From the NCBI RefSeq assembly GCF_900115065.1, contig NZ_FOVE01000001.1:1-64000 (forward strand): a stretch of 64,000 nucleotides of DNA, read 5' to 3'. The DNA comes from Formivibrio citricus (lineage in GTDB: Bacteria > Pseudomonadota > Gammaproteobacteria > Burkholderiales > Chitinibacteraceae). The notes under the pieces were generated by a model. The model was not told the DNA's origin. It saw only the letters and a program-made list of their open reading frames with translations, and searched no databases. The stretch's first letter is position 1. The number at the start of each line of letters is the position of its first letter. A program made the position numbers and the translations under genes. Shown here piece after piece: positions 9,496 through 27,927 of this stretch.

Positions 9496-9899
9496 CCTCC
9501 GACGACCGCGCCCGTGCCCTGATCGAAGCACGGCAGGCCCGCCCCACGGCGGCGCGCCTGCAGGTGCTGCGCGCGCTGCTCGATGCCGGGCGCCCGCTTT
9601 CGCATCAGGAAGTGCAGCAATCGCTGGAGCTGGACCGCGTCACGCTCTACCGCGTACTCGACTGGCTGGCCGATACCGGCATCGCCCACCGCATCAACGC
9701 CGCTGACCGCATCACCCGCTTTTCCGTCTCCAGCGCGCCGCATTGCCATGCGCATTTCCAGTGCGAGCAGTGCGGGCGCATCTTCTGCCTGCCCGAAGGC
9801 GCTCCGATCCTGCCCGGCCCGTTGCCGGAAGGGTTCGTGTTGCGCGAGATCGAAATGACGGTGAAGGGGGTGTGTGCGGATTGCGCGCACCAAGGTTAA
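9492..9899 (+). CDS. zur: Fur-family metalloregulator, probable zinc uptake regulator
   Basis: This Fur superfamily repressor has 135 residues. The N-terminal winged helix includes LSHQEVQQSLELDRVTLYRVLDWL (about residues 37-60), with the TLYR recognition helix. The C-terminal dimerisation domain has HCHAHFQCEQCG and a second CxxC at VCADCAH, the four-Cys structural zinc site of Zur/Fur proteins. It is shorter than E. coli Zur. The zinc specificity is inferred from the nearby znuCBA operon and a perfect operator-like palindrome at 14094-14112. The ATG overlaps the cmk stop (ATGA), so translation is coupled to a housekeeping gene. A Fur or PerR role is less likely. Confidence 0.85.
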   Translation: MTSDDRARALIEARQARPTAARLQVLRALLDAGRPLSHQEVQQSLELDRVTLYRVLDWLADTGIAHRINAADRITRFSVSSAPHCHAHFQCEQCGRIFCLPEGAPILPGPLPEGFVLREIEMTVKGVCADCAHQG

Positions 9900-9904
9900 G
9901 TTAA

Positions 9905-10034
9905 GCGCCTGCCGGCGCGTCTGATTGAATGCCGGGAGTTCGCCCCGGCGGCCGAGTTTCTTTTCTTGTCTCGCCAAGAAAAGAAACCAAAAGAAGGCGA
10001 CCCCGCCCTGCGGCCCTCCGGGCTGCCCTCGGTC
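9905..10034. repeat. Three-hairpin structured repeat, copy 1
   Basis: Three consecutive perfect hairpins: GCGCC/GGCGC (9905-9918), GCCGGG/CCCGGC with a 7-base loop (9931-9949), and a 13-bp stem GTTTCTTTTCTTG/CAAGAAAAGAAAC with loop TCTCGC (9956-9987). They are followed by AAGGCGACCCC and CCCTCCGGG. A second copy at 27480-27610 keeps the layout and loop but uses different, still perfectly paired stems. Short frames crossing it are not credible genes. Confidence 0.8.
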
Positions 10035-10117
10035 GGTCGCGAGCCTGGGTCTCGCTCCGCTTCCTCGGCGCCGGCAAGGGGAGGGAAGGCCTGCTACCTT
10101 TGCCGGCGATTGAGCTC

Positions 10118-10245
10118 GTAGCCTGGATTGGCCGTGCAACGGCGTAATCCGGGTCGCCGCAGGCGATGATGGTGAGGGCGAATAGCGAAGCGTATTCGCC
10201 CGACCAAAGCATGCATGCGATTACGCTTCGCCAATCACACCTGCA
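10118..10245. repeat. Dispersed repeat with GGATT..AATCC hairpin, copy 1
   Basis: The repeat runs from GTAGCCTGGATTGGCCGT, through ACGGCGTAATCCGGGTCGCC and GGGCGAATAGCGAAGCGTA, to ATTACGCTTCGCCAATCACA. A longer copy is at 27742-27927 and fragments occur at 27365-27395 and 55428-55468. It follows the three-hairpin repeat at both full-length sites. Confidence 0.75.
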
Positions 10246-27259: not shown

Positions 27260-27479
27260 GATGGAGCTGCCCTTGGAGGGATTTTGCAGTGAAACTGCAA
27301 GCGGTATAGGTAGCAAAATGCAATTTTATTGTGAATGGCTTGGTTGCACAAATCAGGCACGGTTGTGATTCGCCCGATCAACGTCATGCGCGTGCGCCAT
27401 ACGTGGTGGACAAGGGGGGTAACCTCGCTGTTATTGCAGGGGCTGTGGGAGCGGATGCAATCCGCGAAGAGGGATTTAT

Positions 27480-27610
27480 GCGCCTGCGGCGCGGTGTTTT
27501 TGAATGCGGGTTTCCGCCCCGCTTGCGGGAAAGGGGAATTGTCTCGCCAATTCCCCTTTCATCCCCAAGGCGACCCCATCGCCCGCCCTCCGGGTTCCCT
27601 GCGCTTCTTG
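27480..27610. repeat. Three-hairpin structured repeat, copy 2
   Basis: Same layout as 9905-10034: GCGCC/GGCGC (27480-27492), GCGGG/CCCGC with a 7-base loop (27506-27522), and a perfect 13-bp stem GAAAGGGGAATTG/CAATTCCCCTTTC with loop TCTCGC (27529-27560). AAGGCGACCCC and CCCTCCGGG follow. The third stem shares length and loop with copy 1 but hardly any stem sequence. Confidence 0.8.
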
Positions 27611-27741
27611 ATTGCCACGGCGGCTGCGGAACTTGGCCTGCGGCCTCAAACAGTCCTCGCCGAAACCCCTGCGCCAATCTGCGATGCTCGGCGGGCTCAA
27701 GGGGATGAAAGTCGTCTGCCATGGTGGCAGAGCGGAATTGC

Positions 27742-27927
27742 GTAGCCTGGATTAGCCGTAAAACGGCGTAATCCGGGTCGCCGCAGGCGATGTTGGATGC
27801 TTGAGGCGAAGAGACGTTGCGGGGTTTGTGCATCCGGCGCAGTTCGCGGGGATGGTAGGGGCGAATAGCGCAGCGTATTCGCCCGATCAACGTCATGCGT
27901 GCGATTACGCTTCGCTAATCGCACCTG
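27742..27927. repeat. Dispersed repeat with GGATT..AATCC hairpin, copy 2
   Basis: GTAGCCTGGATTAGCCGTAA, ACGGCGTAATCCGGGTCGCC and, after a 60-base insertion relative to copy 1, GGGGCGAATAGCGCAGCGTA and ATTACGCTTCGCTAATCGCA. A further fragment is at 27365-27395. The whole of 27317-27950 is repeat-derived; I see no gene in it. Confidence 0.75.

Follow-up and report, generated by a model that had tools for sequence, protein, structure and literature searches.

The DNA analysed here, referred to as the window, is a 64,000-nt stretch of the Formivibrio citricus genome (contig NZ_FOVE01000001.1, positions 1 to 64,000 of the forward strand) and carries two copies, A and B, of a unit made up of three hairpins, a short downstream motif and a 3' module. 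Copy A starts directly at the stop codon of an upstream 141-aa ORF (ending at 9899) with a convergent ORF opposite, and copy B lies between genes on the minus strand. The + orientation of the unit is defined as running from hairpin 1 to hairpin 3. The features, with the basis of each, are as follows.

9900–10085, + strand: copy A, with hairpins 1–3, predicted pseudoknot motif and 3' module I (BLAST, covariance-model match, alignment)
9905–9918, + strand: copy A hairpin 1, GCGCC-TGCC-GGCGC (sequence)
9931–9949, + strand: copy A hairpin 2, GCCGGG-AGTTCGC-CCCGGC (sequence)
9956–9987, + strand: copy A hairpin 3, GTTTCTTTTCTTG-TCTCGC-CAAGAAAAGAAAC, 13 bp, loop 9969–9974 (sequence, covariation)
9988–9995, + strand: copy A linker CAAAAGAA, a putative third strand; 9989–9995 mirrors 9976–9982
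9996–10000, + strand: copy A predicted pseudoknot motif GGCGA, of which GCGA (9997–10000) would pair with TCGC of the loop (9971–9974) (covariation)
10001–10081, + strand: copy A 3' module I, from CCCC (10001–10004) to GGGG (10078–10081) (alignment of own copies, regex count)
27475–27710, + strand: copy B with 3' module II, the best covariance-model match in the genome (also alignment)
27480–27492, + strand: copy B hairpin 1 (sequence)
27506–27522, + strand: copy B hairpin 2, GCGGG-TTTCCGC-CCCGC (sequence)
27529–27560, + strand: copy B hairpin 3, GAAAGGGGAATTG-TCTCGC-CAATTCCCCTTTC, 13 bp, loop 27542–27547 (sequence)
27561–27568, + strand: copy B linker ATCCCCAA, which mirrors CAATTCCCCT apart from TT
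27569–27573, + strand: copy B predicted pseudoknot motif GGCGA
27631–27652, + strand: copy B module II core, ACTTG-GCCTGCGGC-CTCAAACA (consensus ACTCG-hairpin-CTCAAACA)

An earlier sequence-only reading of the window had described the two third stems, and its coordinates and letters are exact: both are paired at 13 of 13 positions, their arms differ and the TCTCGC loop is common to both. Hairpins 1 and 2 are likewise paired in each copy, and AAGGCGACCCC lies downstream of hairpin 3 in both (9994–10004 and 27567–27577), as that reading had it. A GTAG-tagged REP (GTAGCCTGGATTRGCC..GGCGTAATCCGGG) follows each window copy, at 10118–10153 and 27742–27777.

BLAST with copy A matched ten more long stretches of the host genome, at 89–94% identity over 9901–10060, along with some partial ones. 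With a covariance model built on the core of the unit, the type of search that the sequence-only reading had proposed, 53 copies were found in the 3.07-Mb F. citricus genome (E < 0.01, with two weaker matches next) and the unit was present in all 36 of the other family genomes sampled, at 2 to 66 copies each; one genome had 102 copies. Outside the family a minority of the other families in the same order were positive, and 13 of 398 genomes drawn from the phylum matched, 12 of them in this order and one elsewhere in its class. When named genomes were scanned with a pattern, the matches were mainly in Thiobacillus, Hydrogenophilales, Gallionellales, Collimonas, Crenobacter, Jeongeupia and other Betaproteobacteria, plus a few MAG labels from outside Betaproteobacteria. 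A plasmid search gave two weak matches, both in Comamonadaceae, and a phage search for the unit gave none. By crude ORF calls the gene context of the copies is convergent in 12 cases, co-directional in 12 and divergent in 6, which gives no support to a strong bias to convergent gene pairs.

Aligned by hand, the own-genome copies fall into three subfamilies of stem 3, which are freely associated with either of two alternative 3' modules. In two own copies (L047 2067–2268 and L059 2440–2635) a hairpin-forming insertion, AATTTTGTAAACAAACTTG, takes the place of the loop in the module I hairpin GCGAG/CTCGC. At L110 (3471–3900) a copy is broken just past the linker, where foreign DNA with the inverted ends GGCTCTGTTGACGTTGG..CCAACGTCAACAGAGCC has been inserted. 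Genus g6 has a divergent variant (L153, L139 and L073), often adjoining ordinary copies, in which the loop is GTCTTGCCT and AACCCTAACGCG lies downstream.

The two window stems had been taken as full covariation between two copies. In part this difference is one between two subfamilies, but many intermediate stems also exist, with 85 different 5' arms of hairpin 3 among 177 copies. The set of distinct copies comprised these 177, in which hairpin 3 is recognisable, and five with none. The third stem is nearly always paired; its length is 12–15 bp, and 92 copies are perfect over the whole stem found. Among 25 own copies, standard pairs fill 97.1% of the structure cells (22 pairs, from hairpins 1 and 3 and the predicted pseudoknot) as against 75.6 ± 1.3% in shuffled controls (0/500 reached the observed value, although it should be noted that permutation counts overstate independence because copies in one genome are related) and 43–57% when the structure was slid. 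In the same copies hairpin 1 is paired in 99% of cells and hairpin 3 shows two-sided changes at 9 of its 13 pairs. Hairpin 2 in most other copies has a rewritten 5-bp stem (GCCGG/CCGGC, GCGCG/CGCGC, GCCGT/ACGGC or GCGGG/CCCGC) with the loop mostly TTCCGC, and the ACTCG..CTCAAACA motif of module II, present in 81 of 172 copies, encloses a hairpin that is rewritten in the same way (GCC/GGC, CCC/GGG, GGC/GCC). The case for selection on the fold is strong and covers hairpin 2, the 3'-module hairpin and the pseudoknot as well. The RNA folding energy is unremarkable (minimum free energy, z about −1.5) and was dropped as evidence for the fold because it is not distinctive.

The sequence-only reading had argued for a function of both the fold and the loop. 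The fold has strong support as a target of selection, but the idea of a fixed loop does not hold: TCTCGC is found in only 48 of 172 copies, the others having CTTCGC (52), CTTCTC (14), CTTCTG (10), TCTCGG (7) and further variants. The 3' part of the loop is complementary to the motif beyond the linker, 8–9 nt downstream, and the two change together, giving the paired states TCGC/GCGA, TCTCC/GGAG, TCTGC/GCAG, TCGGC/GCCGA, CGGCC/GGCCG, CCGCC/GGCGG and others; written as whole loop and motif the states include CTTCGC/GGCGA, CTTCTC/GGAG, CTTCTG/GCAG, TCTCGG/GCCGAG, CACGGC/GGCCG, CGCGGC/GGCCGC and CTTGTC/GACA. Genome G005 has three such states on nearly one stem (L162, L172 and L180). When loops were permuted among 89 unique combinations, none of 2000 permutations reached the observed score of 3.92 (3.27 ± 0.07 permuted), and with an independent, crude anchor for the motif the effect was smaller and still significant. 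This covariation indicates that the loop and the GGCGA-type motif would form a pseudoknot.

Mismatches in the stems suggest which strand folds. In 91 unique stems there are 63 non-Watson–Crick positions: 46 would be G.U if the minus strand folds and 10 if the plus strand does, the remaining 7 being of other kinds (hairpin-2 mismatches were left out as their counts are contaminated by flanking bases). Because the departures are G.U on that strand by 46:10, the folded strand is probably the outward-reading one, which for the window copies is the minus strand as written. On this strand the 5' strand of the pseudoknot comes first, followed by loop 1 of 8–9 nt, the 13-bp stem, the 3' strand of the pseudoknot, 2 nt and again the stem, a layout that would be that of a classical H-type pseudoknot with loop 1 in the deep groove.

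The linker of 8–9 nt between hairpin 3 and the motif repeats the top of the hairpin 3' arm in mirror image rather than as its complement. Thus CAAGAAAAG occurs with CAAAAGAA, CAAAAGAAA with AAAGAAAA, CAAGGAAAG with ACAAAGGAA, CAAAGCCCC with ACCCGAAA or ACCCCAAA and, in the type of window copy B, CAATTCCCC with ATCCCCAA. In 48 arm/linker combinations permuted within stem type, the mirror match was 0.94 for type A (0.77 ± 0.03 permuted, 0/300) and 0.651 for type B (0.625 ± 0.011 permuted, 0/300). Antiparallel pairing of the linker with the hairpin 5' arm was also considered and rejected, as it was not above permutation within a type. Under canonical triplex rules a third strand parallel to the 5' arm demands mirror identity. 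The type A linker on the minus strand reads UUCUUUU parallel to AAGAAAA, and the window copy of this type would have an unbroken run of seven canonical triples, U.A-U and C+.G-C, in the style of telomerase or SAM-II. The fit to the triplex code is very good for type A and partial for type B, where one or two levels are skipped and G.G-C triples are required. The covarying mirror linker looks like the signature of a triple helix, and from it we infer the triplex itself.

What the sequence-only reading missed is that the unit belongs to a repeated and probably mobile element, which is found as head-to-head pairs in relatives. As the window copies are single halves in their host genome, we infer the complete element from these relatives, in which most copies come as + then − within 350–550 bp with hairpin 1 at the outer tips; pairs in genome G004 span 0.75–1.05 kb and have centres filled with repeats. 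Overall the elements of relatives are two outward-facing units around a centre, about 0.45–1 kb, some of the centres being short. The left and right hairpin-3 arms within an element usually differ, so the two ends do not simply pair as TIRs. In Thiobacillus-type loci equivalent ends of about 300 bp each enclose one ORF that is different in each element: L238 encodes a HEPN_AbiU2 protein (1.3e-28), L187 a bPH_2 protein and L262 a putative BRCT protein (by eye; a weak PADLOC match to PDC-S48), the remaining cargo ORFs being orphans. In three Thiobacillus elements (L238 6480–7748, L229 2674–3810 and L262 4634–5860) the 50 bp beyond each shared end are inverted repeats of element-specific sequence. 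Among congeners of G004, G014 lacks the element at site L303 and G022 lacks it at site L307. Site L304 is judged from the spacing of its flanks to be occupied in G022; in G014 this site, which is occupied in G004, holds a 90-bp palindrome of two tips (L348, about 1900–2010), apparently the remnant of an internal deletion. These congener differences show gain or loss of the element, not its mechanism. No target-site duplication was recognised by eye in the flanks of 23 head-to-head elements (one congener site being the collapsed remnant), and no linked recombinase was found in the centres examined, nor was any transposase gene tied to the head-to-head element.

In the host genome many type D copies lie inside a separate 311-bp MITE that carries one half-unit. 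Its 17-bp TIR, AATGCCGTTCACTTAAG, is present with up to 3 mismatches at both ends in 13 copies, 11 of which have a target-site duplication of 9–13 bp, and several of these MITEs are inserted in the loop of an intrinsic terminator (a family that includes L105, L119, L120, L115, L104 and L107). We take the MITE ends to recall IS231/IS186-type IS4 elements; an autonomous IS with type D ends was sought, and no end pair at IS distance was present in the draft host genome.

We lean towards the view that the unit is the terminal domain of a non-autonomous, mobile repeat with folded ends, probably acting as RNA. A transcript leaving the element in either direction from the centre would end in the folded pseudoknot domain, which may serve as the element's recognition structure, its 3'-end-protecting structure or both. 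RNA is preferred to single-stranded DNA because the outward strand gives a canonical RNA triplex and because the inverted ends would then give any departing transcript an identical structure. Folded single-stranded DNA would yield equal covariation and wobble asymmetry, and DNA also forms G.T wobbles and T.A-T triples. The hairpins, pseudoknot and triplex might then be read by a transposase or recombinase, as in REP/TnpA-REP, IS200/IS605 or integron attC, and it fits such a reading that the outward strand at both ends carries each 3' tip, that the paired inverted units with their spacer look like REPIN dimers and that single-gene centres resemble cassettes. We nevertheless consider it rather doubtful: Y1_Tnp (PF01797) was not found in many genomes with 16–66 copies (e.g. 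G003–G007 and G011–G014; 22 of 41 genomes searched had a match), the unit has no GTAG or CGTC tag and no linked recombinase was found in the centres examined. A more tentative extension of the RNA reading is that the elements are an undescribed class of mobile gene cassette, with single genes, including the HEPN-type candidate defence gene, between equivalent ends, and with the triplex pseudoknot of the outward RNA as a recognition signal that replaces a fixed sequence and leaves the ends free to diverge.

A host-useful 3' UTR element, acting between genes as bidirectional terminator, insulator or RNA stabiliser, would suit the intergenic position, the start of copy A at a stop codon with a convergent ORF opposite and the many g6 elements that adjoin terminator-like hairpins; triple helices, moreover, stabilise RNA 3' ends in other systems. 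The mixed gene context, the difference in sites between congeners and the lack of a U tract after the hairpins make this unlikely. Least probable of all is an ordinary selfish MITE-like repeat whose hairpins serve only for protein binding to double-stranded DNA or arose as side effects of module exchange and of mutation that forms palindromes. Many own copies do ride a true MITE with 17-bp ends and 9–13 bp duplications, and modules are swapped between copies, but neither double-stranded binding nor template switching predicts the covariation of loop and motif, that of the mirror linker or the strand-asymmetric mismatches, and on these grounds we disfavour it.

If the preferred reading of a mobile repeat with ends folded as RNA is true, a repeat that can reach about 100 copies in a genome owes its recognition to its three-dimensional fold and not to its sequence, and a triple helix can be read from comparative data alone. 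The copies would then offer a genetically rich source of triplex variants with natural compensation and possibly a new route of single-gene mobility in Betaproteobacteria, with a clear search target, the binder of the folded domain, in hosts without REP transposases.

Among known systems, no Rfam 15 family reached its gathering score over the window units, and eight loci gave only chance-level matches (E up to 1) besides a tRNA; no published repeat that fits the unit was found in the literature, BRE being judged by description. The BRE (PMC3110155), which have mobile-like features and give small transcripts, are repeats of ~90 bp known from several Betaproteobacteria, but they are tandem; this comparison is by description, not by sequence. 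The MRSC-65-2 motif (PMC11109978) is also an abundant repeat with one long covarying stem and dozens of copies per genome, but it has a conserved UYCCGG repeat that is missing here, and it was rejected as the identity of the unit; the GTAG REPs beside the window copies fit it better. Integron attC cassettes are similar in that some elements hold one gene each, although the inverted element ends argue against that reading. MITEs and IS231-type mobile insertion cassettes share inverted ends, the lack of a transposase and sometimes single cargo genes, and the type D copies do have a classical TIR and TSD; the ends of the main element, in contrast, are structured domains with differing left and right hairpin-3 arms and no recognised TSD. 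REP/REPIN sequences with TnpA-REP (RAYT) (PMC3733652, PMC8266576) are likewise palindromes dispersed between genes, often in inverted dimers, whose stems show compensatory changes, whereas the present unit measures about 200 nt and has three hairpins plus a covarying, predicted pseudoknot. By the criterion of GTAG or CGTC at the foot of a 20–40 bp palindrome, the consensus of the hairpin units lacks the tag and the GTAG REPs are separate neighbours; a RAYT link was rejected for the many hosts with no detectable Y1_Tnp. The H-type major-groove triplex pseudoknots of telomerase RNA, SAM-II and SAM-V (PMC6061858 for SAM-V) differ in that the present unit occurs in dispersed repeats rather than 5' of a regulated gene, its stem sequence is free and its fold is predicted from sequence, but the minus strand shares their order of segments and the letters of its loop 1 match the U.A-U/C+.G-C code with the stem.
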